Shown here: piece by piece, positions 1,815 through 22,100 of the stretch
Layout: each line of letters starts with the position of its first letter
Position numbering within the stretch: position 1 is the stretch's first letter
Origin: Bacteroidales bacterium
GTDB lineage: Bacteria; Bacteroidota; Bacteroidia; Bacteroidales; VadinHA17
NCBI GenBank assembly: GCA_025454755.1
Contig: JALONV010000022.1
Location: 1-52,985, forward strand
DNA: 52,985 nt
Direction of reading: 5' to 3'
Notes under the pieces: generated by a model
The model's input: the letters and a program-made list of their open reading frames with translations, nothing else
What the model was told of the DNA's origin: nothing
Database searches by the model: none
Position numbers and translations under genes: made by a program

Positions 1815-3460
1815 TTTATTTTTTTTGAAGCCCAGAGAGCAAGTTTCTCCCGGAATATCTTTGCATTATGCCGGGGATCAACAGGAAATTCTTTCTTAAA
1901 TAAGATATCATTTATATTTTTTGTGATGTTACACATTTTCCCCAGCTCCTTCAGTTCATCCATAATTTTGGGATTTGCTTTGATCCCATTTAATAACTGG
2001 ATGCATATTACGGGTTTTTTAAATCCTGTGTCATTAATGTTAATCCCGACAAGAGCTGATCTGGATACAAGCGGATGCCGATTAAAAACGGCTTCGCACG
2101 GAATGGTAAAAAGAGTTCCTTTATGAGTTATTACCCTGTGCGATTTTCGTCCGTAAAACCAAATCTTTCCTGAAGAATCGATTTTTCCCAGGTCTCCCAT
2201 ACGATGCCAGATTTTATGAGTAGAAAGATCCTGAATTTTGGACAACCTGTCGGCATCGGGTTTTCTATAATAGCCTTTTGATACCCATGGTCCACTAACT
2301 ACAATTTCCCCGACTTCATTTACATCCATCAGTTTTGCGTCCCCCCACGATTCAATATGTTTATCAGTTATTTCAATGATTTTTACATCCAATGGTTCAA
2401 TAGGTCTTCCTATGCAGATTACATTCTCATATTCATGATTTTCTGAGTAGATTTTTAGCAGTTCAGAAGCAGTCACATCAGTAACGGGCAGCGCTTCGGT
2501 AGCTCCATAAGGAGTATGAATAACTGCATCATCGGGAACCAGTCTGCTGAAAGATTCCAGGATATGACCGGGAACTGCGGCTCCTGCTGAAATTATATTC
2601 ATCAGGGTAGGCAGTTTTATGTTTCTCGGTTGACAATATGAAGAAAGTTTATTCAGGATCATCGGAGACCCAAACATCTGTGTGCATCCAAAATCATATA
2701 TGTTCCTGATGACTTTTTCCGGATCCATTTTTGCCGGGTGCATCATATCCATGTCTGCAATAACGGAAGAGTTGCCATGGCATATTGCAAACAGCCCAAG
2801 AAGAGGGAAGGTGCAAAGATCGGTTACATTTGACCCGATTTTGAACCGGGATCTTGTTACCTCAATTTGATTTTTAAGCATGCCAGCCGTATAAATAGCT
2901 CCTTTTGCCGGACCAGTACTGCCGCTGGTGAAGAAAATGACAGCCATATCTTGAGGATTACCTGAATAAGAAGGGAATGGTCTGTTGTTATCAATTCTCA
3001 GGCTATTTAGTCTTTTTGTTCCTTTCAGACTGACCATTCCAGTTGTTATTTTGATTTTTACTGTTTTAAAGGCATGCGGGAATAATAAAAAAAACAAATG
3101 AGCTTTGGGGATGCCTATAAAAGCTTCGGCTTCCAGGTCGGCCAGAACAGTTAACATTGCTTTGATTCCCATTCCGGGATCTATCATAACCGGTACGGCC
3201 CCGATCCTGAGCAATGAAAATATCAGTACAAAAAAGTTAGTTCCTGCCGGTACCAAAACAAGAGTTCTTGTACCTGCCTTAAGGCCTGCCTGGCTGAGTC
3301 CAAATGAAAGAGCATTAACTTTATTTTCAAGTTCTTTATATGTAATTTTTTCAGGGGAAAGAATAGCAGGCTTATCAGGGGATTTTTCAGCATTCAGCTT
3401 AAGATAGTCTGAAATATTGTTGATTTCAGAAGCATTTATATGTTGATCAGATGTCAGCAT
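1811..3460 (-). CDS. oleC: OleC-like AMP-dependent ligase (beta-lactone synthetase type)
   Basis: The 549-residue protein is a member of the ANL adenylate-forming superfamily. The P-loop TSGSTGPAKG lies at residues 178-187, the A5-type motif YGATEALPV at 318-326, and the A7/A8 region (RMGDLGKID, then YGRKSHRVI) lies in the C-terminal third. The tail holds a PVDPRHNAKI segment with the C-terminal-domain lysine. The YGATEALP and RHNAKIFREK signatures are what I associate with OleC rather than with ordinary acyl-CoA ligases. OleC activates a 2-alkyl-3-hydroxy acid with ATP and closes it to a beta-lactone. It sits 11 bases after the second ketosynthase and overlaps oleD by four bases. I infer that it makes a beta-lactone here, either as an end product or as an olefin precursor. 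Confidence 0.85.
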   Translation of the reverse strand: MLTSDQHINASEINNISDYLKLNAEKSPDKPAILSPEKITYKELENKVNALSFGLSQAGLKAGTRTLVLVPAGTNFFVLIFSLLRIGAVPVMIDPGMGIKAMLTVLADLEAEAFIGIPKAHLFFLLFPHAFKTVKIKITTGMVSLKGTKRLNSLRIDNNRPFPSYSGNPQDMAVIFFTSGSTGPAKGAIYTAGMLKNQIEVTRSRFKIGSNVTDLCTFPLLGLFAICHGNSSVIADMDMMHPAKMDPEKVIRNIYDFGCTQMFGSPMILNKLSSYCQPRNIKLPTLMNIISAGAAVPGHILESFSRLVPDDAVIHTPYGATEALPVTDVTASELLKIYSENHEYENVICIGRPIEPLDVKIIEITDKHIESWGDAKLMDVNEVGEIVVSGPWVSKGYYRKPDADRLSKIQDLSTHKIWHRMGDLGKIDSSGKIWFYGRKSHRVITHKGTLFTIPCEAVFNRHPLVSRSALVGININDTGFKKPVICIQLLNGIKANPKIMDELKELGKMCNITKNINDILFKKEFPVDPRHNAKIFREKLALWASKKIK

Positions 3461-3471
3461 GTCATTATATC

Positions 3472-4380
3472 TTAATTTCTGTAAAGCGCCACAGAGACTT
3501 TTATTCCTGAGCCGATTGTGAGAAAAATTATATTCTTTGCACTTTTGAAACGATCATCATCCCAGGCTTTTTTCAGCGCAAATGCCGGCCCGGCTGTATG
3601 GAATGTTTTTTCTCCGTTTTGTGAAATTTCGACAAAATTTTCATTCATTCCAAGACGGGCTTTTAACCTTCCTGTAAATTTCAAAGGACTTTGGGATCCT
3701 ATTAATAGGTCAATTTCTTTCAGCAATATTCCTGACTCATCAAGAAATTTATACAATGATTTAACCGCTAATTCGACACATAAATCTGGATATGATTCCC
3801 GCTGGGAGACATTAAGAATGTTTTGGCCTCTTTTTTTCCAGGTTGGAATGCTGTAAAAAGTCCTGCTGACCAGTTCTTCGCTGTATTCAGGATATGTATA
3901 TGTTCTGAACAGCGAAAATCCCCTGGAGCCTTCTGTTAAAGAAAGTATTATGGCGGCAGCAGATGCATTGAAGTTAAATGATTTCGACAAACCATGAAAG
4001 GGTTCAGAATCGCCGGCAACTGTCATTCCAAAAGATATTTCTTTATTCACTAATGATCTGTGAACAATTTCTATTCCTGTAAGCAAACCACATCCACCAT
4101 TATTTATGTCAAATGAAAAAGTGTTTTGAGTTTTGGTTGAATCGTCAAAAGCAGTTCTGCCGGAAGAGATTTTCTCCTGGATAAGAGCTGCGATTGAAGG
4201 CTCTCCTGTGTTCTTATGGCGGTATATTCCAGTATAGATCAAAAGGCCGAGGCCACACATATCAACTCCGGATTTTATCAGACAGTGCCGGGCTGCGCGA
4301 ACGGATAAATTGATTGAATTTCCAAGGTAAAAACTGAAATGCGGTCTGGCGACGGTGACCATATCAATTAAGCTTCCCAT
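3472..4380 (-). CDS. Degenerate ketosynthase III, probable non-catalytic partner of the OleA-like enzyme
   Basis: About 302 residues from the ATG at 4380; an in-frame TTG at 4392 is a weaker start. The thiolase fold and the motif spacing match the neighbouring OleA-like protein, but all three catalytic residues are lost. At the nucleophile position the partner has DISNACAG and this protein has DINNGGCG, putting Gly96 where Cys belongs. The His position reads IGSQ (Ser229), and the Asn position reads NGEK (Glu257). The glutamate of the EPS motif (Glu60), equivalent to the general base Glu117 of OleA, is kept. This is the pattern of a chain-length-factor-like subunit, as described for the LstA/LstB pair of lipstatin biosynthesis. 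The gene overlaps the catalytic ketosynthase gene by 17 bases, as expected for a heterodimer. Confidence 0.75.
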   Translation of the reverse strand: MGSLIDMVTVARPHFSFYLGNSINLSVRAARHCLIKSGVDMCGLGLLIYTGIYRHKNTGEPSIAALIQEKISSGRTAFDDSTKTQNTFSFDINNGGCGLLTGIEIVHRSLVNKEISFGMTVAGDSEPFHGLSKSFNFNASAAAIILSLTEGSRGFSLFRTYTYPEYSEELVSRTFYSIPTWKKRGQNILNVSQRESYPDLCVELAVKSLYKFLDESGILLKEIDLLIGSQSPLKFTGRLKARLGMNENFVEISQNGEKTFHTAGPAFALKKAWDDDRFKSAKNIIFLTIGSGIKVSVALYRN

Positions 4381-5419
4381 AGCGGTATACAATATCGTTC
4401 ATTTTGAAGATTACCACACCAATGATCAGTCCGGATGCAAAACAGAGCAGCATGACATTATCATCTTTACTGAATTGTTTTTCTTTCAGATATTTGTACA
4501 TAGCCAGGAAATGTGTGGTTGAAGCAGTATTCCCTGTATCTTTTAATGTAATTGCTATATGCCCGGGCTTCTCCCCGAAACATTCCAGATAATGATTAGC
4601 TCCGGAAAGGATAGAGCTTCTCGATGTTTGATGAGGAATCAGCCATTTAATATTATTCAGTGACATTTTACTGTTGCTAAGTGCCTGCTGTAATATAGGA
4701 ACAGACTCAGTTATTGCAGCCTGATGGATCTTTTTTGCCCTGGTTTTCATTTTTCCTCCGGGAGCGTTCCGGTTTTGCATTCCGGTGCACAGATTGCTGT
4801 ATTTGCTAAGTGTTATAAAACCTGATACAGTGAGGCCATTATTCTCTTCATCAGTTCTTTCAATTATTGCTGCCGCTCCGCAGTCACCAAGCGTTAGAGA
4901 AGATAATTCCGAGCTTAAGGATGTTTTAATATTTTTTAATGCATGATCACTTATGTTTGAAATGTATTCCCCGCTCACTATCATACAGGTTTTAATAATA
5001 CCCTGTCTGATAAATTTCTCAGCTAAATATACACCGGTAAGCATTCCTGCACATGCATTGGAAATATCAAATGTCATTGCATTATCAGCTCCGATAGCTT
5101 TCATTATTAAAATTGAAAAGGAAGGTTCGTAAAGATGTGATAATCCATCTTTATATTTTGTAATTGAGCAATTAATGATCATATCGAGTTCATCAGCCCG
5201 GTATTTTGAATATGAGAGACAATCATTCGCCGCATCCACTGCCAGGGAAAATGAATCTTCACCGGGAGAACATACCTTCTTTTCAAATATCCCTGTCAGC
5301 AATCCAAACTTTCTGACGCACGGAGTTTTAAATCTCTCCAGCAATTCCTTGGTAGTTAATGTTTTTGAAGGGAATTTCACTCCTATACTTTCAATCTGGC
5401 ATTTCCAGTTCATATACAT
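4364..5419 (-). CDS. oleA: OleA-like acyl-CoA condensing enzyme (ketosynthase III/thiolase fold)
   Basis: The 351-residue protein carries the full KAS III triad: Cys123 in DISNACAG, His263 in IPHQTS and Asn297 in DTGNTAS. Glu98 in YEPS corresponds to OleA Glu117, which removes the alpha proton during the non-decarboxylative Claisen condensation. OleA joins two fatty acyl-CoAs head to head into a 2-alkyl-3-oxo acid. It starts seven bases after the alpha/beta hydrolase gene and overlaps the degenerate ketosynthase gene. ATG codons at residues 1 and 3 are both possible starts. A FabH-type role is less likely given the clustering with OleC and OleD homologues. Confidence 0.8.
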   Translation of the reverse strand: MYMNWKCQIESIGVKFPSKTLTTKELLERFKTPCVRKFGLLTGIFEKKVCSPGEDSFSLAVDAANDCLSYSKYRADELDMIINCSITKYKDGLSHLYEPSFSILIMKAIGADNAMTFDISNACAGMLTGVYLAEKFIRQGIIKTCMIVSGEYISNISDHALKNIKTSLSSELSSLTLGDCGAAAIIERTDEENNGLTVSGFITLSKYSNLCTGMQNRNAPGGKMKTRAKKIHQAAITESVPILQQALSNSKMSLNNIKWLIPHQTSRSSILSGANHYLECFGEKPGHIAITLKDTGNTASTTHFLAMYKYLKEKQFSKDDNVMLLCFASGLIIGVVIFKMNDIVYRYGKLN

Positions 5420-5426
5420 CCATGGA

Positions 5427-6335
5427 TTAACTTAATAATTCGATCTCTGCTTTGATCCTGAACCTGATTATAATATCAGCAAGTTCCGCGCTTCTGTCTT
5501 CCTGGATAAAGTGACCTGCCTCAAGCCTAACATGATCCTGTCCGATTGCTCCGGGGATCCTCTTCTGTAGATATTCATCACCGCCGTATGTTATCGGATC
5601 ATTACTGCTGAAGACAGTCAGAAAAGGTTTCTTCCATTCATTAAGCGATTTATATGCAGTTTTGTTTGCTGCTGATTCAGGATCATTTGCAGAAACCGGT
5701 ACCAGATGGGGGAGAGCACGAATTGCGACTTTATATTTTGATGAAGGGAAAGGTGCACGGTATGCTTTTCTCTCTTCTTTATCCAGTTTGCGCAATGTTC
5801 CCACCTCAAGAATACGATCGACAGGAATATTTGGGCTGTATTTTGCAAAGTACTTCCATAATTTAAAAGTAGAATGAATTTTTTGTTCACCTGTCGGCAG
5901 CATACCGTTGCTGACTATTATTCCCGTAAACAGATCCGGGTGTAGTGCGGCAATTCTTAGTCCGATCAAAGATCCCCAGTCATGGCAGAAAAGGATTATC
6001 TCTTTAAGATTTAATTGGAAAATGAAATTTGTGATCCAATCAATATGTGACTGGTAAGTATGTGATTTTATGCACTGGGGTTTATCTGATTTCCCGAAGC
6101 CAATTAAATCAGGAGCAACAACCCGGCAGCCGTTTTCTGAGATTTTCCTGATAATGTGCCTGTACAGATATGACCATGCCGGAACACCATGAAGCAACAA
6201 AACAGGTTTATCATTATCAGGACCTTCATCCACATAATGCATTTGAAGATCATTGATCCTTAAGAAATGAGATTCAAAGGGGTATTCTTTCAGACCATTA
6301 AATCGAGATTCCGGTGTCTGAAGTATCATATCCAT
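5427..6335 (-). CDS. Alpha/beta hydrolase of the haloalkane dehalogenase family, OleB-like by context
   Basis: The 302-residue hydrolase has an Asp nucleophile (Asp119 in FCHDWGS), a probable acid Asp246 (SSNDP) and a His base, His275 (EAGHFIQE). The oxyanion region reads HGVPAWSYLYR. This is the haloalkane dehalogenase layout. The late acid position and APDLIGFGKSDKP resemble subfamily I dehalogenases, whereas typical OleB proteins carry an HGNP-type oxyanion motif. OleB decarboxylates the beta-lactone to a cis-olefin. As first gene of the cluster, seven bases before the OleA-like gene, it most likely acts on the cluster product. It could instead open the lactone without decarboxylation, or be a true dehalogenase. 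Confidence 0.7.
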   Translation of the reverse strand: MDMILQTPESRFNGLKEYPFESHFLRINDLQMHYVDEGPDNDKPVLLLHGVPAWSYLYRHIIRKISENGCRVVAPDLIGFGKSDKPQCIKSHTYQSHIDWITNFIFQLNLKEIILFCHDWGSLIGLRIAALHPDLFTGIIVSNGMLPTGEQKIHSTFKLWKYFAKYSPNIPVDRILEVGTLRKLDKEERKAYRAPFPSSKYKVAIRALPHLVPVSANDPESAANKTAYKSLNEWKKPFLTVFSSNDPITYGGDEYLQKRIPGAIGQDHVRLEAGHFIQEDRSAELADIIIRFRIKAEIELLS

Positions 6336-11624: not shown

Positions 11625-12104
11625 ATGAAGATAATTAAAAAAATACTGATCCTGGGAATCGGAAATGATATTCTTACCGACGATGGTATTGGCCCCAGGC
11701 TTGTTCGTGATCTGGCTCAAATGAACATCAATCCAAATTTCGGATTTGATGTCGCCGGCTGCGGTGGACTGGAGATAATGGAACATATAAAAGGTTATGA
11801 TAAGGTGATTTTCATTGATGCAATACGTACCCGTACCGGTAAACCTGGCGCTGTATATTATTTTATTCCTTCTGATTTCCGTGAAACCTCTCATCTGTCA
11901 AATCTTCACGATCTGAATTTTCTTACATCGCTAAAACTGGGAGAAATCCTTGAACTTGGACTGCCTTCCGATTTACATATAATTGCTGTCGAGATCCTTG
12001 AGGACATGGTATTCGGCGAGGAATTGACCTTTCCTTTAAAGAATGAGTATCCCCGCATTCTTAGAAAAGTGGTATCTCTTATTAAGAAGATAGCTGAAAA
12101 ATAA
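11625..12104 (+). CDS. [NiFe]-hydrogenase maturation protease (HycI/HybD family)
   Basis: The 159-residue protein has the family signature GIGNDILTDDGIGP at residues 11-24. Probable nickel-sensing ligands are Asp20 (DDG), Asp65 (IFIDAIR) and His95 (SNLHDL), which line up with Glu16, Asp62 and His93 of HybD. These endopeptidases remove the C-terminal tail of the large subunit after nickel insertion. The MvhA-like large subunit encoded at 14462 still carries a tail after its DPCxxCxxH motif, so it is the likely substrate. The gene lies upstream of, and in the same direction as, the hydrogenase genes, separated by the response regulator gene. No hypABCDEF genes are present in the window. Confidence 0.9.
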   Translation: MKIIKKILILGIGNDILTDDGIGPRLVRDLAQMNINPNFGFDVAGCGGLEIMEHIKGYDKVIFIDAIRTRTGKPGAVYYFIPSDFRETSHLSNLHDLNFLTSLKLGEILELGLPSDLHIIAVEILEDMVFGEELTFPLKNEYPRILRKVVSLIKKIAEK

Positions 12105-12340: not shown

Positions 12341-12787
12341 ATGAATGAAAAAGCAAAAATTCTCGTTGTTGAAGATGACAGTGATCTCGTTGCTGCAATA
12401 ACTAAAATACTTGAAAACAAAGGCTATGCTGCTTCAAGTGCATATGATCCGGAAGAGGGCTGGGATAAAATAAAACAGGATAAACCGAATCTGATCATCC
12501 TTGATGTTATGTTTGGAGGTAAGGGAGAATCAAAAGGATTTGATTTTGCCCATAAAATAAGGTGTGATAAGCAATTTTCTGATATTCCGATATTAATGAT
12601 GACAGCAATTAATACAGAGAAGCCTTTTTTCAATTTTTCGCCGGAGACAGATGGTGAATTTTTACCCGTCGATGCTTTTCTTGACAAGCCTGTCAAATCT
12701 GATGAACTTTATCTTAAGGTTGAAGAGCTATTAAAGCAGAAAACCAGCAAATGGATTAATTGGCCAGAAAAGAACAATAATAACTGA
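12341..12787 (+). CDS. Stand-alone response regulator (receiver domain only)
   Basis: The 148-residue protein is a single CheY-like receiver domain. Acidic residues Glu11-Asp13 (VVEDDSD), the phospho-acceptor Asp55 (ILDVMF), the switch Thr88 (MMTAIN) and Lys116 (FLDKPVK) are all present. There is no DNA-binding or enzymatic output domain; the C-terminus ends in polar KNNNN. It precedes the hydrogenase genes by 260 bases, and a histidine kinase gene follows the same gene block at 20748. I infer that they form a pair adjusting hydrogenase or respiratory activity by protein contact. The 236 bases upstream show nothing but AT-rich sequence. Confidence 0.85.
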   Translation: MNEKAKILVVEDDSDLVAAITKILENKGYAASSAYDPEEGWDKIKQDKPNLIILDVMFGGKGESKGFDFAHKIRCDKQFSDIPILMMTAINTEKPFFNFSPETDGEFLPVDAFLDKPVKSDELYLKVEELLKQKTSKWINWPEKNNNN

Positions 12788-13046: not shown

Positions 13047-13472
13047 ATGGAATTTAATCCCCGGATTGTTGCATTTCTCTGCAACTGGTGCTCATACACT
13101 GGTGCTGATCTGGCAGGGACATCAAGGATGGAATATAAATCTAATGTACGAGTTGTCAGGATCATGTGTTCAGGTCGTATAGAACCAACATTTGTACTCA
13201 GAGCATTTACAAAAGGTGCCGATGGTGTGCTTATCTGCGGCTGTCACCCCGGTGACTGCCACTATCAGGAAGGAAACTACCGCTGTTTACGCAGGTTCCT
13301 GTTATTGCAGAAATACATTCTGCAGATGGGAATTGAAACAGAAAGGCTTAAGCTCGAATGGATAAGTGCCAGCGAGGGAAAACAATTTGCAGAGCTTGTG
13401 AATAGTTTTACTGAGACAATTACTGAACTAGGGCCCTGTAAAATAAAGGATACAATGAAGGTCCTGACCTAA
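13047..13472 (+). CDS. mvhD: MvhD: iron-sulfur linker subunit of a Hdr-linked hydrogenase
   Basis: The 141-residue protein matches the MvhD/FrhD-like family in length and cysteine pattern: LCNWCSYTGAD (Cys12, Cys15), IMCSGR (Cys41), ICGCHPGDCHY (Cys64, Cys66, Cys71) and Cys80. In methanogens MvhD holds a [2Fe-2S] cluster and passes electrons from the hydrogenase to HdrA. It is the first gene of the hydrogenase block and is followed after 18 bases by the small-subunit gene. In QmoB a similar domain is fused to HdrA; here it is a separate protein. The assignment is firm; the electron path is inferred from methanogen complexes. Confidence 0.9.
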   Translation: MEFNPRIVAFLCNWCSYTGADLAGTSRMEYKSNVRVVRIMCSGRIEPTFVLRAFTKGADGVLICGCHPGDCHYQEGNYRCLRRFLLLQKYILQMGIETERLKLEWISASEGKQFAELVNSFTETITELGPCKIKDTMKVLT

Positions 13473-13490
13473 ATTAATAAATCTCACATT

Positions 13491-14465
13491 ATGGAAGGTT
13501 CAAAGCCAAAATTAAAGCTTGCCGTATATTGGGCAGCTGCCTGCGGTGGCTGCTGTGTATCCGTGCTTGATGTTCATGAAAAACTGTTTGATGTTGTTGC
13601 TGCCGCCGACCTGGTATTCTGGCCTATTGCGTTCGACATCAAATACCGCGATGTAGAGGAGATGCCCGACCAGAATATTGATGTCACCCTGTTTAATGGA
13701 GCAGTCAGAAACAGCGAAAACGAACATATGGCAAAGCTTTTAAGAAAGAAAAGCAAGATCCTTGTTGCCTATGGCAGCTGCTCACATCTTGGAGGCATTC
13801 CCGGACTTGCAAATTTTTCAACAAAAGAAGAATTATTCCGGAGAGTATATTCGGAAAGTGAATCAACTGTAAATCCTGATAATGTAAATCCTCTTCCGGA
13901 ATTTGAAGTAAAAGAGGGAGTTTTAAGCTTACCCGATTTCTATAATGATGTCAGATCACTTACACAGGTTGTCGAAGTGGATTATTTCATACCGGGTTGT
14001 CCTCCGCAGACTGAAAGGTTACTTGAAGTCTTTACAGCAATTGTGAGCGGGGCCGAGCTCCCGCCAAAGGGTTCTGTCATTGGGGCCGGAACAAAGACTC
14101 AGTGTGATGATTGTATCAGGAAAAAGACTGAAAACAAGCGCATTAAAAAATTTTACCGACCATGGGAGATTCAGGATGACGGAGTATCCTGTTTCATGGA
14201 ACAGGGGGTTATTTGTATGGGACCCGCTACAAGAGAAGGATGCGGATACCGTTGTATTAAGGGTAATGCTCCGTGCCGCGGATGCTATGGTCCTCCCACC
14301 GGAGTTATCGACCCGGGTGCCAAAATGATGTCATCTATTGCCAGTATCATAGATGAAAAAGAGCCTGAAGAGATAAGCAGAGTCCTTGAAGATGTGGTCG
14401 ATCCGGCCGGATTATTCTACCGTTTTAGTCTTCCCGTTTCATTAATAAGAAGAAAATTAATATGA
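13491..14465 (+). CDS. mvhG: MvhG: small subunit of group 3c-type [NiFe]-hydrogenase
   Basis: The 324-residue protein has no Tat signal, so it is cytoplasmic. The proximal-cluster cysteines are in AACGGCCVS (Cys18, Cys21), GSCSHLGG and FIPGCPPQ. Further cysteines in the C-terminal part (CDDC, VSCFMEQGVICMGPATREGCGYRC, CRGCYGPP) would hold the medial and distal clusters. This matches MvhG-like small subunits and the NADH-quinone oxidoreductase 20-kDa family fold. Its stop overlaps the start of the large-subunit gene by four bases (ATGA), so synthesis of the two subunits is probably coupled. Confidence 0.9.
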   Translation: MEGSKPKLKLAVYWAAACGGCCVSVLDVHEKLFDVVAAADLVFWPIAFDIKYRDVEEMPDQNIDVTLFNGAVRNSENEHMAKLLRKKSKILVAYGSCSHLGGIPGLANFSTKEELFRRVYSESESTVNPDNVNPLPEFEVKEGVLSLPDFYNDVRSLTQVVEVDYFIPGCPPQTERLLEVFTAIVSGAELPPKGSVIGAGTKTQCDDCIRKKTENKRIKKFYRPWEIQDDGVSCFMEQGVICMGPATREGCGYRCIKGNAPCRGCYGPPTGVIDPGAKMMSSIASIIDEKEPEEISRVLEDVVDPAGLFYRFSLPVSLIRRKLI

Positions 14466-15925
14466 AAAGGATCACAATAGACCCTATAACCAGGCTGGAA
14501 GGCCATGGTAAAATTGAGATTTTCCTGAACGATGAAGGAGAAGTTAACAATGTCTATTTCCAGGTTCCGGAACTAAGAGGTTTCGAGAAATTCTGTGAAG
14601 GAAGACCTGTGGAAGAGCTTCCTGCCATCGTCGCAAAAATATGCGGTGTTTGCCCGGGCTGCCACCATATGGCATCGGGTAAAGCTGTTGATGCTGTATT
14701 TGGCGTTAACCCTCCTCCTACAGCAAAAAAACTCAGGGAACTTTTTTACATGGCACATTTTGTTCACAGTCATACCGCCCACTTTTATGCACTTGCGGCG
14801 CCTGACTTCGTTGTTGGTCCCTATGCACCACCTACTAAAAGGAATATTCTCGGGGTAATTGAAAAGGTAGGAAAAGAAATTGGGACAGAAGTCATTAAGC
14901 AACGCCGTTTGGCACAGGAAATCCAGGCTCTGCTTGGCGGCCATCAGACTTTTGTAGTGATGAATATCCCGGGAGGCGTCAGACGAGGGCTCTCTGAAAC
15001 AGAACGGGATGATATAGCCGATAAAGCAAAAGGCTTTGTTGAATTCGCAAAATTTACATTGAAGATTTTTGAAGATGTAGTATTGAAGAATAAGGAATAC
15101 GTCGATTTAATCCTCAATGGCCCCTATTCGCTTAAGCTTCATTCAATGGGACTTGTCGACGCCAGCAACAAAGTAAATTTCTATGACGGAAAAGTCAGGG
15201 TGGTCGATACGGAAGGTAAGGAATTGTGTAAATATTCTCCTCCGGAGTATCTCGATTATGTTGCCGAGCATGTTGAGCCATGGACATATCTGAAATTCCC
15301 GTTCCTGAAAAAAATAGGATGGAAAGGATTTATTGAAGGACAGAATTCTGGAGTGTATCATGCCACACCTTTATCGAGACTAAATGCTGCTGACGGGATG
15401 GCTACACCCCTTGCCCAAAAGGAGTATGAAAGAATGTACACCACACTCGGAGGGAAACCTGTTCATGCGACATTAGCAATGCACTGGGCAAGGCTTGTAG
15501 AGCTGTTATACTCCGCTGAACGATGCCTTGAGCTTGCAATGGATCCTGAAATTACCGGCAGGGAATTACGTGCTCAGCTGGGTCCTATCCCTGGCGAGGG
15601 TGTCGGTATTGTGGAAGCCCAGAGAGGCACCCTGACACACCATTACTGGACTGATGAAAAGGGTATTGTGAAAAAAGTCAATATAATAGTAGGAACAACG
15701 AATAATCATGCTGCAATCTGTATGTCGATTAAAAAAGCTGCTGAAGGCTTTATTAAAAAAGGGGTTGAAGTAACAGACGGCATCCTGAATCTGATTGAAA
15801 TGTCGTTTCGGGCTTATGATCCCTGTTTTTCGTGCGCCACACACTGTTTCCCGGGACAAATGCCGATGATTCTTGAGATTCGTGAACCCAATGGTGAATT
15901 AATCCAGCGTTTGATAAGAAATTAA
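14462..15925 (+). CDS. mvhA: MvhA: catalytic large subunit of group 3c-type [NiFe]-hydrogenase
   Basis: The 487-residue protein binds the NiFe active site. The N-terminal motif is ICGVCPGCHH (Cys61, Cys64), after the signature ITRLEGHGKIEI. The C-terminal motif is DPCFSCATH (Cys455, Cys458). A 26-residue tail follows His461 and should be cleaved by a maturation protease such as the one at 11625. The L1/L2 motifs and the MvhD/MvhG neighbours place it in the Hdr-linked group 3c. It catalyses reversible H2 oxidation. In known systems it is soluble and feeds HdrA; here a membrane protein gene lies downstream in the same block. Confidence 0.93.
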   Translation: MKRITIDPITRLEGHGKIEIFLNDEGEVNNVYFQVPELRGFEKFCEGRPVEELPAIVAKICGVCPGCHHMASGKAVDAVFGVNPPPTAKKLRELFYMAHFVHSHTAHFYALAAPDFVVGPYAPPTKRNILGVIEKVGKEIGTEVIKQRRLAQEIQALLGGHQTFVVMNIPGGVRRGLSETERDDIADKAKGFVEFAKFTLKIFEDVVLKNKEYVDLILNGPYSLKLHSMGLVDASNKVNFYDGKVRVVDTEGKELCKYSPPEYLDYVAEHVEPWTYLKFPFLKKIGWKGFIEGQNSGVYHATPLSRLNAADGMATPLAQKEYERMYTTLGGKPVHATLAMHWARLVELLYSAERCLELAMDPEITGRELRAQLGPIPGEGVGIVEAQRGTLTHHYWTDEKGIVKKVNIIVGTTNNHAAICMSIKKAAEGFIKKGVEVTDGILNLIEMSFRAYDPCFSCATHCFPGQMPMILEIREPNGELIQRLIRN

Positions 15926-15973
15926 ATTATTCTGACAGGTAAGTGATATTAAATAATCAATAAAGAAGGAATT

Positions 15974-17776
15974 ATGCGAACCGGAGTCTTTTTCTGCCAG
16001 ACAGATGACAACAGGAATCTTAATATTGATGCTATAGCAAAATATTCAGCTAACCTTCCTGAAGTTGAAACGGTCCAGATCCTGAGATTGAAACCTCTTC
16101 CTGAAATAAATTTTATTTGTCATCAAATAAAAACAAATAATCTGGAAAGGGTAGTCATTGCAGGAGATATACCAGGATATTATAAACCTGTCTTTACCAG
16201 GGCAATGGCCCTGGCAGGTGGCAATGCAGATGAAATACGGCTTGCCTCATTCCAGGAACATGGTGCCAGAGGCGAAAATGCCATGGATCGTGCCAAAGCT
16301 ATTGTTGCCTGTGCCACAATGGGCGTACCATTTCCTCTCGCTGCCGTTCCGGGGGGAAACCCTGTCAACCATGCAACTCTTATTATAGGAGCAGGTATAG
16401 CAGGGATACAATCTGCCCTGGAAATAGCCAATGCCGGCAAGCAGGTATTCCTTGTTGAGCAGACAGGGACGATAGGCGGACATATGGCAATGTTCGATAA
16501 AACATTCCCCACCCTCGATTGCGCCGCCTGCATCCTTACTCCCAAAATGGTATCTGTGGGGCAGCATGAAATGATCCGGCTGTTGACAAAGTCTAAAGTG
16601 GTCGCTGTTTCAGGAAAACCTGGATCTTACAGGGTTAAGATCAAACAAAGTGCCCGCTACGTTGATGTTAAATCGTGTATCGCATGCAACCTGTGTACTG
16701 AAGTTTGCCCCGTTAAGGTCAAAAGCGAGTTTGATGCAGGAATATCAATGCGTAAAGCCATCTATATCCCTTTTCCTCAAGCTGTTCCCAATGCATACCT
16801 TGTAGATGAGAAAAGTTGTACTTATATCCTTTCTGAAGGTAAGAAATGCGGCGTCTGCATGAAAAAATGTCCCAAGGAATGCATAAACCTGAATGAAACC
16901 GACCATACTATAGATATTGAAGTGGGAAATATTATTCTGGCAACAGGATATGAGCTTCTTGACGTCAGTAAAATAGAACAATATAAATATGGCATATTCC
17001 CTAATGTATTGACTTCCATAGAATTTGAGCGGCTTACAAATGCTTCCGGGACAACCGGAGGCCGGATTGTTACCAAAACAAAAAGGTTTAATAAGAAAAC
17101 AGAGAAGGATGAATGGATCTTCTCCCCTGAAGGTATTCCGCCGAGAAGTGTTGCACTTATTCATTGTGTGGGATCCAGAAATAAAAAGTATAATCCTTAC
17201 TGTTCCCGGGTATGCTGCATGTATTCTCTGAAATTCGCTCATCTTATAAAAGAAAAAGTTCCAAACGTAACCGTTTACGAGTTTTATATAGACATGCGGG
17301 CCTTTGGCAAAGGTTATGAGGAGTTTGCTGAAAGGATTAAACAGGAAGGAACATTTATTGTGCGCGGACATTCAGCATCTGTTGAGATGAAAGACGATCA
17401 AATGGTAGTGCGGGGAGAAGATATCTTTAATGATAAATTAGTTGAATTCAAAGTCGACATGGTCGTACTGGCAGTTGGACTGATACCATCGCCCGGAACT
17501 GAAGAGCTCAGCAGGATGCTGGGAATACAAAGAGATACCGATGGCTGGTTTTCCGAACTTGATTACAATGGCAGTCCTACTGATACTGATAAGGGCGGAA
17601 TTTATGTTGCCGGAATGTGCCAGGCACCAAAAGATATTCCTGATACAGTAGCGCAGGCTGCTGCAGTGGCTGCAGGAGTTTTGGGCAGCCTGACAAGCGG
17701 GAAAGGGCTCGGGCACATGAGCAGCCTTACACTCAGCGAAATAGAAGCCAAAGCTAAAACCATACATACAATCTAA
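15974..17776 (+). CDS. hdrA: HdrA-like flavoprotein with internal ferredoxin insert (HdrA1)
   Basis: The 600-residue protein has the HdrA core: FAD-binding GAGIAG at 139-144, the DCAACILTPKM segment at 182-192, HCVGSR near 397-402 and YCSRVCCM at 409-416. A ferredoxin-like insert carries two [4Fe-4S] motifs, CIACNLCTEVCP (235-246) and a second set at Cys282, Cys292, Cys295 and Cys299. The N-terminal domain has lost the usual cysteines (GVFFCQTDDN instead of a CxCG motif), and there is no C-terminal ferredoxin. HdrA is the flavin centre for electron bifurcation in Hdr complexes. It starts 48 bases after mvhA behind a modest AAGGA site. A second HdrA-like protein, encoded two genes later, carries the missing parts. 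Confidence 0.88.
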   Translation: MRTGVFFCQTDDNRNLNIDAIAKYSANLPEVETVQILRLKPLPEINFICHQIKTNNLERVVIAGDIPGYYKPVFTRAMALAGGNADEIRLASFQEHGARGENAMDRAKAIVACATMGVPFPLAAVPGGNPVNHATLIIGAGIAGIQSALEIANAGKQVFLVEQTGTIGGHMAMFDKTFPTLDCAACILTPKMVSVGQHEMIRLLTKSKVVAVSGKPGSYRVKIKQSARYVDVKSCIACNLCTEVCPVKVKSEFDAGISMRKAIYIPFPQAVPNAYLVDEKSCTYILSEGKKCGVCMKKCPKECINLNETDHTIDIEVGNIILATGYELLDVSKIEQYKYGIFPNVLTSIEFERLTNASGTTGGRIVTKTKRFNKKTEKDEWIFSPEGIPPRSVALIHCVGSRNKKYNPYCSRVCCMYSLKFAHLIKEKVPNVTVYEFYIDMRAFGKGYEEFAERIKQEGTFIVRGHSASVEMKDDQMVVRGEDIFNDKLVEFKVDMVVLAVGLIPSPGTEELSRMLGIQRDTDGWFSELDYNGSPTDTDKGGIYVAGMCQAPKDIPDTVAQAAAVAAGVLGSLTSGKGLGHMSSLTLSEIEAKAKTIHTI

Positions 17777-17781
17777 GGAGG
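17775..17781 (+). promoter_or_regulatory. Strong Shine-Dalgarno site of the QmoC-like gene
   Basis: AAGGAGG overlaps the stop codon of the first hdrA-like gene and lies 5 bases before the ATG at 17787. It fixes the start of the QmoC-like gene and suggests reinitiation within an operon. Confidence 0.55.
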
Positions 17782-17786
17782 TCGTT

Positions 17787-18944
17787 ATGTCTGTCAGAGT
17801 AAATCCAATGTTTATTGATGATCTGGACCGTTTCGGTGCCGAAGATGTTCAACTCTGTTACCAGTGCGGGGATTGTTCAACTGTTTGTCCTCATGCAGAT
17901 GAAGTATATAAATTTCCCCGTAAATCGATGCGTTTACTGCAGATGGGGTTGGAACAGAAGCTTGAAACCACTCTGGAGCCATGGTTATGTTATTACTGCG
18001 GTCAGTGCTCCGAACAATGCCCGAGAGAAGCAGATCCGGGGGAAACCATGATGAGCCTGCGGCGTTGGCTTATTTCCCGTTATGACTTTACCGGGATTGC
18101 CCGCCAGTTTTTTAAATCCAGAATTACGGAGATTATTGCTATTATCAGCATCGCTCTGCTGACCGGGGCTTTTCTGTTATTTTATGGATTGTCCGGCGGC
18201 AATATACATATATATGATGGTGACGGGGCCTTTTTACCCAGTCCCTTCATCCACAAATTCGACCTTTCGGTCGGAGGAATACTGGCAGTCTTCCTTGTTC
18301 TCAATGCTATCCGTATGTGGTATTTTGTTATGATCAAAGGGACAACATTTGCCGTACCATGGTGGCTCTATATTACTGAAATTTACCAGCTTCCATGGCA
18401 TTTCTTAACACAGAAACGTTATTCGGAGTGTGAAAGAAAGCGTGAACATAAATTTTATATGCCATGGATAATCCACCTGGGACTGATGCTTGGATATGTC
18501 ACAATGCTGGTTCTGGTAATGGTTTTTATCGAACAGTTACAGGCAGGACCTGAAATCCGCTGGCAGGTACATATTTTCGGATACCTCGCAACTATAGGCC
18601 TGATTACAGGGACTGTTTATTTCATAAGGAGCCGTTTTAAGAAACATTATATCCAATACAAAAAATCGCATGGCACCGACTGGGTCTTCGTGGTTTTACT
18701 GTTTATAATTGTTTTAACCGGTATTGCACAGCATATTTTTCATCGCACCGGACTATATGAATGGGCTAACATTACATATGTCATTCATCTGATGAGTGTT
18801 GTTCCATGGTTACTCAGGATGCCATTCAGTAAATGGTCCCACCTGATCTATCGTCCCCTGGCCATGTATCTTGCAGCTATCCGCAGAGATGCATTAGTCA
18901 GGCAGGTCACTATAATAAATTCTAATCCTGTAGTGGTAAAGTAA
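17787..18944 (+). CDS. QmoC-like HdrC-HdrE fusion: [4Fe-4S] ferredoxin domain plus cytochrome b membrane domain
   Basis: Residues 1-100 form an HdrC-like domain with two [4Fe-4S] motifs, CYQCGDCSTVCP (Cys24-Cys34) and CYYCGQCSEQCP (Cys68-Cys78). From about residue 113 there are some six membrane helices of the NarI/HdrE type. Candidate haem b ligands in or near the helices are His156, His230, His262, His316, His319 and His334. The length (385) and the layout, including the PFSKWSHLIYRPLAM ending, fit QmoC of sulfate reducers better than separate HdrC and HdrE. The protein should link the cytoplasmic flavoproteins to the menaquinone pool. No HdrB (CCG-domain) gene accompanies it. Confidence 0.85.
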   Translation: MSVRVNPMFIDDLDRFGAEDVQLCYQCGDCSTVCPHADEVYKFPRKSMRLLQMGLEQKLETTLEPWLCYYCGQCSEQCPREADPGETMMSLRRWLISRYDFTGIARQFFKSRITEIIAIISIALLTGAFLLFYGLSGGNIHIYDGDGAFLPSPFIHKFDLSVGGILAVFLVLNAIRMWYFVMIKGTTFAVPWWLYITEIYQLPWHFLTQKRYSECERKREHKFYMPWIIHLGLMLGYVTMLVLVMVFIEQLQAGPEIRWQVHIFGYLATIGLITGTVYFIRSRFKKHYIQYKKSHGTDWVFVVLLFIIVLTGIAQHIFHRTGLYEWANITYVIHLMSVVPWLLRMPFSKWSHLIYRPLAMYLAAIRRDALVRQVTIINSNPVVVK

Positions 18945-18956
18945 AAGAACGAGCAT

Positions 18957-20693
18957 ATGAAAAATTGCAGAATCGGCGTTTATGTTTGCATGTGCGGAAC
19001 AAATATCGCTAAAATAGTTGATGTGGAGGCTGTTGTTAAGTTCGTATCAGAACTTCCGAATGTTGTTCTTGCAAAAACTTATAAATATATGTGCTCCAAT
19101 CCCGGTCAGGAGATGATAGTCCAGGATATTAAAGACAACCAGCTCAACAGGGTGGTAGTGGCTGCCTGCAGCCCCAATATGCATGAACGTACATTCCGTA
19201 ATGCATTACGCGCTGCCGGTCTGAATCAATATCTTCTTGAGATGGCCAATATACGGGAACAGTGCAGCTGGGTTCATACTGATATAAAAGAGGCTACTGA
19301 AAAAGCCAGGGCGCTGGTTTATGCTGCCATATGCCGCGTTGAGCTCCATGAAGAGCTGGAAAGCATGTCGGTTGATATGTGCCCGAATGTGCTTGTTATC
19401 GGAGGAGGAATTGCCGGGATGACTGCAGCCCTTGAAATAGCAGATGCAGGAAATAATGTTTATCTGGTTGAAAAAAACGATCACCTTGGCGGTAATCTTG
19501 CACGAGTAGACCTTACAGCGCCATACCTTTATTCTGCCCGTGATCTTCTTACTGAAAAAATTACGCGTACCAATAACAACAAAAAGCTTCATATCTATCT
19601 GCAGTCCAAAGTGACTAATCTGACAGGATATATAGGTAATTTCAAAGCAACAATTAATTCGCTGAATGGAAAACCGCCTGAAAAGAATAAACCTGCTGAG
19701 GTTGAAATAGGGAATGTGGTCGTATGTACAGGATACAAGGAATTCGATGCTTCACGCATCGTACACTACGGATACGGCAAACTGCCGAATGTAATAACTT
19801 CTTTTGAACTGGAAAAAATGATCCGGGCGGGACGAATCGTAACAAAGGAAGGGAAAATACCAAGGCATGTAGCAATTATTCATTGTGTCGGTAGCCGGAG
19901 CCAGGAGTTTCATACTTATTGTTCAAGAGTCTGTTGTATGACTGCCCTGAAGTATGCACATGAAATCAAATCAGCTAATCCTGAATGTTATATTTCTGAT
20001 GTATATATTGACATGCATGCATTCGGAAAAGGACATGAAGATTTTTACTGCAGGTCTTCAGAAGCCAAGACACTATTCCTTATGTACGAAAAAGGCGACC
20101 GCCCTGTTATTCATAAAGCTACATCGAAAGATAATTGTGAGATGCTGATAGAAGTTAATGAAAAGCTTTCAGGTGAAGTTATTGAGATTCCCGCCGACCT
20201 GGTAATCCTGATGGTAGGGATGGAAGCCCGTGAAGATTCGCACGAAGTAGCCCGAATTGTAAATATAAGTCAGGATAAGGAAGGATGGTTCATTGAGAGC
20301 CATCCTAAGCTTGAGCCTGTTGCCACTACAACGGATGGAATATTTATTGCCGGGACCTGTGTCGCTCCGAAAGATATTCCTGATAGCGTCGCCCAGGCAA
20401 GGGCTGCAGCAGCAAGGATACTTGCAAGAATAGCAAAAGAAAAAATTGAAGTAGACGCTCTCTATTCGGAAGTAAATGAAAACCTATGCTCCGGATGCCG
20501 GCTCTGTAACCAGCTTTGCCCTTATAGTGCAATTGAATTCCTTGAAGATAAGAAACAGAGCCATATCATCAGTGCTTTATGTAAAGGCTGCGGAGTCTGT
20601 GTTGCCGCCTGCCCGTCATCAGCTATAAATGGCAGGCACTTTACAGACCAGCAGGTACTTGCACAGGTTGACGGACTTTTTGTCATCCCCTGA
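18957..20693 (+). CDS. hdrA: HdrA-like flavoprotein with N-terminal and C-terminal iron-sulfur modules (HdrA2)
   Basis: The 578-residue protein keeps the N-terminal HdrA iron-sulfur domain (VCMCGTNIA, Cys11/Cys13; YMCSNPGQ; AACSPNMHERTF). FAD-binding GGGIAG follows at 149-154, then CVGSRSQEF near 310 and YCSRVCCM near 321-328. It ends with a ferredoxin domain holding two motifs, CSGCRLCNQLCP (511-522) and CKGCGVCVAACP (542-553), and the HdrA-typical HFTDQQVLAQV tail. It lacks the internal ferredoxin insert that HdrA1 has, so the two proteins together carry one full HdrA set. It starts 12 bases after the QmoC-like gene. I infer that it forms a QmoA/QmoB-like heterodimer with HdrA1. Confidence 0.88.
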   Translation: MKNCRIGVYVCMCGTNIAKIVDVEAVVKFVSELPNVVLAKTYKYMCSNPGQEMIVQDIKDNQLNRVVVAACSPNMHERTFRNALRAAGLNQYLLEMANIREQCSWVHTDIKEATEKARALVYAAICRVELHEELESMSVDMCPNVLVIGGGIAGMTAALEIADAGNNVYLVEKNDHLGGNLARVDLTAPYLYSARDLLTEKITRTNNNKKLHIYLQSKVTNLTGYIGNFKATINSLNGKPPEKNKPAEVEIGNVVVCTGYKEFDASRIVHYGYGKLPNVITSFELEKMIRAGRIVTKEGKIPRHVAIIHCVGSRSQEFHTYCSRVCCMTALKYAHEIKSANPECYISDVYIDMHAFGKGHEDFYCRSSEAKTLFLMYEKGDRPVIHKATSKDNCEMLIEVNEKLSGEVIEIPADLVILMVGMEAREDSHEVARIVNISQDKEGWFIESHPKLEPVATTTDGIFIAGTCVAPKDIPDSVAQARAAAARILARIAKEKIEVDALYSEVNENLCSGCRLCNQLCPYSAIEFLEDKKQSHIISALCKGCGVCVAACPSSAINGRHFTDQQVLAQVDGLFVIP

Positions 20694-20747: not shown

Positions 20748-22100
20748 ATGGAAGAAAAATTAGTCCCGGCACATATACTTTTTGCAAAATGGTTCATCAG
20801 GATCAGGTGGGTTGCTCTGTTTATTCTTATTATCTCTAATTATATTGTCACTCACCTGCTTGATATTTCGATCAGGGAAATACCTATATATATTCTTTCT
20901 GCGATCCTGCTAATTCTAAATGTTCTCCACAGAATTATCCTGCGGCGGATCACTAATGATGGTGGAAGGAAAGTAACCTTAAGGATTAAAAGAGACATCC
21001 ACTTCCAGATTATTACAGACCTGATTATTCTTACTTTGATCCTCCATTACTCAGGAGGAATAGAGAATCCGCTTATCCTTTTTTATTTTTTTCACCTGAT
21101 TATTGCAAGTTCAATATTTTCTACTTTTCAAAGTTATGTGTATGCGATTTTTGCACTTATACTTGCTGCAACCCTGGCTATCCTTGAGTGTTATGCCATT
21201 ATTCCTCACTTCCCGCTGGAAGGCTTCGTTACACATGAACTTTATAAGAATGTCTTATATGTATTTGGGGCAGGATTCATTTTCGCCTGCACTTCAATTA
21301 TGGTGGTAGGCCTTTCACACATGATCATATACAGGTCAATTAAAAGCGAGGAGACCTATGTAATAACGAATATCGAACTCGAAAACAAAGACAAACTTAA
21401 AAACGAATATGTACTTAGGGTTACACATGACATCAAAGGTCATGTTGCCGCAATCCTAAGCTGTCTCGAAGTAGTCAGATCAAATCTGACAGGACCTCTC
21501 AATAAAGTACAGGAAGAATTTTCAAACCGCGCATATGAGCGGACTGAGCTGCTTTCCAGTTTTATTAAGGACCTGCTGAATCTGACAAGGAAACGATTGA
21601 AACACGATTATGAATTTGAAGAATTTCTTTTGACAGACCTGGTCAGCAAAGTTGTGTCTCCCATTCAGATCCTGATGAAGGATAAGTCAATTGATTTTAA
21701 TATGTACCTCGATAAATCGATCGGAAGGATTGCAGGTAATCCATATACCATCGAGGAACTATACTCGAATCTTTTGCTCAATGCAGTAAAATATACTCCT
21801 CCGCACGGACACATTGAACTAACAGTTAAGAACCGGATAAGCAATTTCATTACTGAGGTATCCGACTCAGGGATCGGAATACCGAATGATGAGCTCCCGA
21901 AAATTTTTGATGAATTTTACCGGGCTACCAATGTTCCAAAAGATATTAAAAGCGGATCAGGGCTGGGTCTTTCAATTGCAAAACAGATCGTTGAGGATCA
22001 TAAAGGTAAAATATGGGTAACGAGTGAGGTCGGTGTATGGACTAAATTTACTTTTATCCTTCCAAAGAATAAGGTAGATATTAAAGCAAATCTTCTGTGA
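20748..22100 (+). CDS. Membrane-bound sensor histidine kinase
   Basis: The 450-residue protein has about six membrane helices in residues 15-195 with very short loops, so it probably senses a membrane or redox signal rather than a periplasmic ligand. The phospho-acceptor is His227 in RVTHDIKGH. The ATPase has an N box (NLLLNAVKYTPP), G1 (DSGIGI), F box (IFDEFYR) and G2 (GSGLGLSIAK). It starts 54 bases after the second hdrA-like gene on the same strand and may be in the same transcript. The likely partner is the receiver-only protein encoded at 12341 on the other side of the hydrogenase genes. Confidence 0.85.
   Translation: MEEKLVPAHILFAKWFIRIRWVALFILIISNYIVTHLLDISIREIPIYILSAILLILNVLHRIILRRITNDGGRKVTLRIKRDIHFQIITDLIILTLILHYSGGIENPLILFYFFHLIIASSIFSTFQSYVYAIFALILAATLAILECYAIIPHFPLEGFVTHELYKNVLYVFGAGFIFACTSIMVVGLSHMIIYRSIKSEETYVITNIELENKDKLKNEYVLRVTHDIKGHVAAILSCLEVVRSNLTGPLNKVQEEFSNRAYERTELLSSFIKDLLNLTRKRLKHDYEFEEFLLTDLVSKVVSPIQILMKDKSIDFNMYLDKSIGRIAGNPYTIEELYSNLLLNAVKYTPPHGHIELTVKNRISNFITEVSDSGIGIPNDELPKIFDEFYRATNVPKDIKSGSGLGLSIAKQIVEDHKGKIWVTSEVGVWTKFTFILPKNKVDIKANLL

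Follow-up and report, generated by a model that had tools for sequence, protein, structure and literature searches.

A group 3c-type hydrogenase gene block with a split HdrA pair and a QmoC-like membrane subunit in Bacteroidales: a candidate H2:menaquinone:ferredoxin complex

Contig JALONV010000022.1 of the Bacteroidales assembly GCA_025454755.1 (2.93 Mb, 97.8% complete; contig G000:C18 in our numbering) was analysed over its 52,985 nucleotides, hereafter the window. At positions 13047–20693 it carries six open reading frames (ORFs) on the plus strand, in the order mvhD-mvhG-mvhA-hdrA1-qmoC-like-hdrA2, with gaps of 18, −4, 48, 10 and 12 bases between successive genes. Parts otherwise known from two separate enzymes, Mvh-HdrABC and QmoABC, appear to be combined in this one operon, which probably encodes a Qmo-like quinone complex that is fed by a group 3c hydrogenase and bifurcates H2 electrons to menaquinone and ferredoxin. 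The gene content of the block, its conservation and the complementary loss of cluster motifs in its two HdrA proteins were observed directly and are described in the following.

The gene order mvhD-mvhG-mvhA-hdrA-(hdrC/hdrE fusion)-hdrA given in the original prediction was confirmed by the ORFs and by their Pfam and NCBIfam matches (Table 1). The best NCBIfam matches of the six proteins, HdrA2/HdrA models in the case of both HdrAs, were all under the curated cut-offs, so that the names used here denote kinship; the match of MvhD to the Pfam FlpD family was above cut-off. MvhA carries the group 3c motifs L1 (ICGxCxxxH) as ICGVCPGCH and L2 (AYDPCxxCATH) as AYDPCFSCATH, as defined in an excerpt of PMC6085437, and the co-encoded MvhD and HdrA by which group 3c [NiFe] hydrogenases (Mvh/Vhu) are recognized are present in the block. 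A C-terminal extension beyond DPCFSCATH is present, as expected if MvhA is trimmed by a HycI/HupD-type protease. On inspection of the MvhG sequence by eye no twin-arginine signal was seen, so that H2 is probably handled in the cytoplasm; a periplasmic hydrogenase was rejected on this ground. The MvhD cysteine pattern 12, 15, 41, 64, 66, 71 was in register in hydrogenase-linked rows, as far as the rows extend, and was not kept in the MvhD-like proteins of hydrogenase-free loci.

For comparison, GTDB species genomes were scanned with the QmoC-like protein, giving 46 named loci, the nearest of which to the block were Bacteroidales metagenome-assembled genomes. A core was called where the QmoC-like gene had beside it one or both of the HdrA pair with 50% or higher identity over 250 residues. 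The hdrA1-qmoC-hdrA2 core was present in 34 of the 46 loci, two of which (L060 and L080) end before hdrA2. In 29 of the 34 core loci one or more mvh genes lay directly beside a trio, in one of two gene orders; the remaining five (L044, L055, L060, L063, L080) reach a contig end on the deciding side, with hypB just upstream in L060. mvh genes were directly upstream of the core in 17 Bacteroidota loci and directly downstream in ten loci from Acidobacteriota including Aminicenantes, Sumerlaeota, an actinobacterium and a Deltaproteobacterium/Myxococcota, seven of these ten having a protease after mvh on the same strand. In L070, which belongs to a second cluster type (see below), mvhD is downstream, and in one of the two trios of L057 it lies beside the trio at the contig edge. 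An annotation artefact or chance neighbourhood was ruled out by the 34 loci and the two gene orders. Going by the record labels, about six phyla have the core and about five have it with adjoining mvh. Of the non-Bacteroidota records, however, six stem from one data set (Zod_Metabat), and the near-identical L054–L056 carry three different phylum names, so that the bin labels are unsure. The cluster is distributed patchily across several phyla and is not confined to Bacteroidota.

HdrB was searched for by its CCG domain. PF02754 had no match in any of the six block proteins, and a CCG profile, based on 18 domains and controlled by the 14 CCG ORFs (E under 1e-19) that it recovered in twelve control loci, found no CCG protein in the whole window. 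A CCG text pattern misses real CCG proteins (L155) and matches two HdrA2s; the profile gives the same answer. Within the clusters of the 34 core loci the profile likewise found no CCG protein: it marked three CCG ORFs in the 46 named loci, of which the single one among the core loci (L041) lies about 5 kb past hdrA2, beside an HdrC-like gene of its own. The predicted lack of HdrB thus holds for the block; the genome nonetheless has HdrB-like proteins in other operons.

The two HdrA proteins were compared in 37 HdrA1 and 37 HdrA2 rows, numbered against HdrA of 5odc. L125, L130, the cut HdrA2 of L055 and the partial second HdrA1 of L133 were dropped before tree building and counting, as were rows shorter than 380 residues, including the HdrA1 rows of L070 and L129; the L048 and L133 rows are identical, so that the 37 rows are not all independent. 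An inserted ferredoxin domain with eight cysteines was kept in 37/37 HdrA1, and the region is missing in 37/37 HdrA2. Conversely, the N-terminal cysteines 11, 13, 46 and 71 were present in 37/37 HdrA2, whereas HdrA1 has none at 13, 46 and 71 (0/37) and one at 11 in 28/37 rows. Cysteines 194 and 197 were found in all HdrA1 and in no HdrA2. The C-terminal two-cluster motif pair occurs in HdrA2 rows only; in HdrA2 of L057 one of its two motifs was matched by the pattern. The equivalents of C386, C399, C403 and C404, which we take to be HA4, and of E356 and K409, whose roles are likewise presumed, were present in 74/74 rows. HdrA1 and HdrA2 formed two separate clades of 37 rows, both at 100% (SH-aLRT, quick method), and separated again at 100/100 in a thinned, more careful tree of 60 rows. 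Both hdrA genes of the original prediction are therefore present, but they are not equivalent: judged by their motifs, HdrA1 and HdrA2 are complementary halves, the first QmoA-like and the second QmoB-like. For a common origin of HdrA1 and the QmoA-like proteins of hydrogenase-free loci, the approximately unbiased (AU) test gave p 0.056.

The QmoC-like protein (385 residues) scored 195 bits against the QmoC model, whose equivalog cut-off is 300 bits, and no QmoC above this cut-off was found in any of 20 searched genomes that hold this or related clusters. In the PDB search HdrC chains, together with two weaker ferredoxin-type chains, matched its first 100 residues, and no match was obtained across the membrane half. 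In an alignment of 35 of the 47 sequences (window plus 46 loci), His 230, 334 and 352 were invariant in 35/35 rows and His 156, 262, 316 and 319 in 27/27 rows of the first cluster type. A structure model (pLDDT 83.6) was searched with Foldseek, which returned HdrC at probability 1.00 and NarI at 0.97, but at E over 0.2; there was no match at E under 0.001. The genome has two MqnA/MqnD-family matches (futalosine menaquinone route), a strong RnfC and, at a contig end, an SdhC of the b558 type.

The block fails membership of both Mvh-HdrABC and QmoABC. With Mvh-HdrABC (5odc) and Elp-Hdr (8rvu), which are the best PDB matches of both HdrAs and of MvhA, it has MvhA, MvhG, MvhD, the HdrA domains and the HdrC domain in common. 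Unlike Mvh-HdrABC, it is without HdrB/CCG, its HdrC is fused to a cytochrome b-type domain, and the N-terminal, inserted and C-terminal cluster domains that Mvh-HdrABC holds in one HdrA are split over HdrA1 and HdrA2. With QmoABC it shares the HdrC-HdrE fusion and, very nearly, the division of cluster domains over two HdrA-type proteins. A single locus, L124 (QmoC 423.8 bits), served as bona fide Qmo reference: its QmoA resembles HdrA1 in having the inserted ferredoxin but no cluster domain at either terminus, except that HdrA1 retains a cysteine-poor N-terminal domain which QmoA is without. Its QmoB, like HdrA2, has no inserted domain and a C-terminal two-cluster domain, but three of the four N-terminal cysteines, Cys 13 being absent, where HdrA2 has all four. 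Furthermore, MvhD is fused to QmoB in L124 and is a separate gene in the block, and the partner is APS reductase for QmoABC and a [NiFe] hydrogenase here. No aprAB was found in the block, to which the search for it was confined. An ordinary QmoABC of sulfate respiration was rejected on score, MvhD fusion and partner.

Taken together, and with moderate confidence, the block is read as one membrane-attached complex, MvhAGD-HdrA2-HdrA1-QmoC, that would couple H2, menaquinone and ferredoxin. The candidate H2:menaquinone(:ferredoxin) complex of the original prediction is supported by the co-localization in two orders, by the clusters without hdrB, by the intact hydrogenase motifs and conserved membrane histidines, and by the menaquinone and Rnf genes of the genome. 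Also in favour of the reading are the nearly equal split in the one Qmo reference, the SdhC, the RegB-like kinase downstream, the CODH/ACS-type genes beside the cluster in L066 and energetics that are favourable above about 5 Pa H2 for ferredoxin at −500 mV (see below). Its assembly, haem, quinone site, bifurcation and direction we infer by analogy, chiefly with Elp/Mvh-Hdr. There, according to an excerpt of PMC12350162, the arm of an HdrA serves the FAD of its partner protomer: an arm cluster carries the low-potential electron over to the partner's inserted ferredoxin, and the high-potential electron leaves via the partner's HA4. In the block, MvhA would split H2 at its [NiFe] site in the cytoplasm, and electrons would pass over MvhG to the [2Fe-2S] cluster of MvhD. 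The latter would be carried on a mobile arm that HdrA2 forms from its N- and C-terminal cluster domains and that would serve the FAD of HdrA1. One electron would then run from HA4 of HdrA1 over the HdrC domain of QmoC and haem b to menaquinone (MQ), while a cluster of the C-terminal domain of HdrA2 would pass the other, by way of the inserted ferredoxin domain of HdrA1, to ferredoxin (Fd). As HdrA2 retains the arm and HdrA1 the parts that receive from it, a path from HdrA2 to HdrA1 uses each conserved part once, and the anatomy suggests that HdrA2 feeds HdrA1. The net reaction would be 2 H2 + MQ + Fd(ox) → MQH2 + Fd(red), and its direction would turn at H2 pressures around or under a few Pa. 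A likeness exists to Fix/EtfABCX, which bifurcates to menaquinone and ferredoxin (abstract of PMC10734219).

Several findings weigh against this reading. Six CCG stretches in four HdrB-like ORFs were found elsewhere in the genome (contigs C131, C26, C53); the modelled membrane half of the QmoC-like protein resembles NarI weakly; and MenA was not found in the genome, so that menaquinone is indicated by the two MqnA/MqnD-family matches. [FeFe] hydrogenase matches occur at five places in the genome, and a second [NiFe]-like large subunit, closest to NuoD/FpoD and with both nickel-type CxxC motifs, is encoded on contig C47. The other trio of L057 is without an mvh gene in its visible flank, and in an even phylum draw a close HdrA1 was found in one of 395 genomes, namely the source genome itself (three candidates scored per genome). 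Finally, the FAD-site residues compared above (the equivalents of C386, C399, C403, C404, E356 and K409) are present in the nine HdrA and two Qmo rows as well and are thus not specific to bifurcating HdrAs.

The same complex might run mainly in reverse, confurcating menaquinol and reduced ferredoxin to H2 and so ridding the cell of menaquinol electrons during fermentation or syntrophy when H2 is very low, which we hold to be unlikely but worth serious weight. With textbook potentials of −414 mV for H2, −74 mV for menaquinone and −500 mV for ferredoxin, the proposed reaction was computed at −49.0 kJ/mol at 1 bar H2, −3.3 at 10 Pa and +8.1 at 1 Pa. Taken together, the two branches become unfavourable below about 5 Pa H2, or below about 1 Pa with ferredoxin at −450 mV. 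H2 could accordingly be taken up above a few Pa and released below, and confurcation of menaquinol and ferredoxin has been proposed for QmoABC (excerpts of PMC3685469 and PMC10553843). Against release as the main direction, in one locus, L066, the cluster is preceded by CdhD-, RACo- and pterin-binding-methyltransferase-type (CODH/ACS-type) genes of CO2 fixation, where reduced ferredoxin would be needed and consumed, and with its [FeFe] matches and the group 4-like hydrogenase the genome already has candidates for H2 release.

Rather improbable, in our judgement, is a plain H2:menaquinone oxidoreductase, i.e. the same assembly without bifurcation, its ferredoxin domains serving as wires or being relics. 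H2 to menaquinone alone is strongly downhill (−65.6 kJ/mol at 1 bar H2), and for QmoABC, with nearly the same domains, the ferredoxin partner is a proposed one (excerpt of PMC3685469). Relics decay, however, and the eight cysteines of the inserted domain were kept in every HdrA1 row, with the domain absent from every HdrA2 row. Simpler periplasmic uptake hydrogenases also exist in bacteria for passing H2 electrons to menaquinone, which counts against this explanation. Very improbable, and rejected on the CCG scans of genome and loci, is a soluble heterodisulfide-type complex with its active site supplied by an HdrB encoded elsewhere: HdrABC is often apart from MvhAGD in genomes (excerpt of PMC6085437) and single-CCG proteins are encoded on C26 and C53, but these genes already adjoin HdrC-like genes of their own, the HdrC domain of the block is fused to a membrane domain, and the CCG profile stands at 14 ORFs in the twelve controls against one in the 34 core loci.

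If the bifurcating complex is correct, it would give anaerobes a direct route by which menaquinone, in place of heterodisulfide, accepts the high-potential electrons and thereby drives ferredoxin reduction with H2. What the second HdrA and ferredoxin do in Qmo-type complexes, which is unsettled, would become testable with an easily assayed substrate, H2. Owing to the complementary losses in its HdrAs, a single asymmetric complex could also show the cross-protomer path that electrons have been proposed to take in Hdr complexes. According to an excerpt of PMC6085437, MvhAGD had been shown solely with HdrABC, and a genome survey counted on that pairing; the block breaks this assumption. One paper tentatively suggested a pairing of Mvh with a QmoB homologue, and among the matches listed for the full-text literature searched (subscription papers being outside its scope) there was no description of an Mvh-HdrA pair-QmoC cluster. 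The Fix/EtfABCX system mentioned above differs from the proposed complex in its donor, NADH, and in its unrelated flavoprotein.

A wider proposal, to which we give somewhat less than an even chance, is that the block represents a new quinone-linked branch of flavin-based bifurcating hydrogenases, having an asymmetric HdrA heterodimer (one input arm, one ferredoxin exit) and a QmoC anchor and catalysing 2 H2 + MQ + Fd(ox) ↔ MQH2 + Fd(red). This branch would belong to a wider plug-in platform (HdrA pair + QmoC) that takes H2 (Mvh), NAD(P)H (L125, L130) or APS reductase (Qmo), the H2 form working near equilibrium at syntrophic H2 pressures. L125:2263-8621 and L130:7425-14753 encode an mvhD-like protein, an HdrA of 910–950 aa, an HdrA2-like and a QmoC-like protein, with no hydrogenase genes in the stretch seen. 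Their first HdrA has an inserted Fer4_20 and pyridine-nucleotide oxidoreductase (NfnB/GltD-like) where HdrA1 has its ferredoxin domain, and these clusters are candidates for an NAD(P)H:quinone version of the platform.

Table 1. Features of the block and of its direct neighbourhood in the window
Feature	Position	Strand	Basis
HycI/HupD-type hydrogenase maturation protease	11625..12104	+	PF01750 1.7e-9, TIGR00072 3.7e-27; upstream of block
Response regulator, receiver domain only	12341..12787	+	PF00072 6.1e-16; upstream of block
MvhD, [2Fe-2S] link hydrogenase-HdrA	13047..13472	+	PF02662 (FlpD) 3.6e-55
MvhG, hydrogenase small subunit	13491..14465	+	NF045875 VhuG 4.5e-69, under its cut-off
MvhA, group 3c-type [NiFe] large subunit	14462..15925	+	NF041785 VhuA 8.7e-118 (under cut-off); PDB 5odc_F 3.8e-119
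HdrA1 (QmoA-like half)	15974..17776	+	PDB 5odc_A 2.8e-128; FAD domain, HA4 cysteines, inserted ferredoxin domain
HdrA1 inserted two-cluster ferredoxin domain, residues 235-300	16676..16873	+	eight conserved Cys
QmoC-like HdrC-HdrE fusion	17787..18944	+	NF038018 2.4e-57; N-terminal 2x[4Fe-4S] and membrane cytochrome b-type domain
HdrA2 (QmoB-like half without fused MvhD)	18957..20693	+	PDB 8rvu_a 5.5e-150; N-terminal cluster motif, FAD domain, HA4 cysteines
HdrA2 C-terminal two-cluster (2x[4Fe-4S]) ferredoxin domain	20487..20615	+	Pfam Fer4 matches, motif inventory
Membrane sensor histidine kinase, RegB-like quinone motif	20748..22100	+	HATPase_c 8.7e-28; downstream of block
GGIENPL, counterpart of RegB heptapeptide GGXXNPF	21054..21074	+	

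The kinase downstream of the block carries GG(I/V)ENP(L/V/M) at residue 103 in 15/15 orthologue rows, those of L048 and L133 being the same sequence, and in 0/7 other kinase rows. In the ORFs of the 46 loci (509,515 residues) the pattern occurred 16 times, 13 of them in the downstream kinases. RegB binds coenzyme Q1 via GGXXNPF, a ubiquinone-binding heptapeptide (excerpt of PMC10525716, citing Swem 2006), the final F being replaced by L, V or M in the kinases. A putative quinone-redox sensor beside the operon fits a quinone-linked enzyme and is no proof of one. Orthologues of the upstream response regulator (66–80%) have the same place in L038, L041, L042, L045 and L051.

Within the genus, the source genome and five of 35 relatives have QmoC at at least 71%. 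In a sixth relative (G034), HdrA1 and HdrA2 are at 82–83% and QmoC only at 45–47%, nearer to the second cluster type, so that it looks as if the membrane subunit had been exchanged. L129:7182-10965 combines HdrA1 (partial) and HdrA2 at 82–83% to the window with a QmoC at 45% that is most like those of the second type (54% to L070), likely by exchange of QmoC. The second type was seen in Bacteroidota (L132:2408-10038, L133:12981-19998, L057:3-4917, L070), with mvh genes downstream, HdrAs at 50–56% and QmoC at 38–39% to the window; L133 carries both types in tandem. Relatives of the source genome (L134, L135, L136, L138, L139, L140) have hdrC-hdrB-hdrA-mvhD clusters with more ORFs after mvhD, two of which were scanned in L134, one being without Pfam match and one matching Fer4_22.

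MvhA was found at E 1e-60 or better in 33 of the 395 genomes of the even phylum draw, the four nearest other MvhAs, those of L150, L151, L152 and L153, being at 64–68% to the window. In the MvhA tree 22 rows from Bacteroidota formed one clade (99/99), 8 rows from other phyla a second (100/100), and 6 HdrABC/NuoEF-linked rows a set at 88/94, a picture compatible with one or with two recruitments of MvhDGA; the distant long-branch row L154_2516, a different hydrogenase, was kept. In L150, L151 and L153, MvhDGA (MvhA 63–68%) adjoins an HdrA of about 595 aa and NuoE-/NuoF-like genes, possibly an NADH-linked Mvh-HdrA complex with no HdrB or QmoC nearby, and in L152 and L154, of the same phylum, Mvh genes stand with HdrABC-type genes. 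In these five loci the related MvhDGA (50–68%) is partnered by an NADH-type module or a CCG protein, not by QmoC; related hydrogenase modules within one phylum are thus paired with three kinds of partner.

The large subunit on C47 belongs to a cluster (G000:C47:5000-24000, L158) with proton-antiporter and MnhB-type subunits, which is probably a group 4 membrane hydrogenase; complex I/Mbx only was ruled out by the two CxxC motifs. A neighbouring gene pair is like sulfhydrogenase beta/gamma (or AsrA/AsrB). In the window itself, a minus-strand gene row at 825–6335 encodes OleD-like and OleC-like proteins (Ole matches under equivalog cut-offs), a 306-aa ORF without named family, a ketosynthase III-like and a haloalkane-dehalogenase-like protein, and resembles a long-chain olefin (Ole) cluster.

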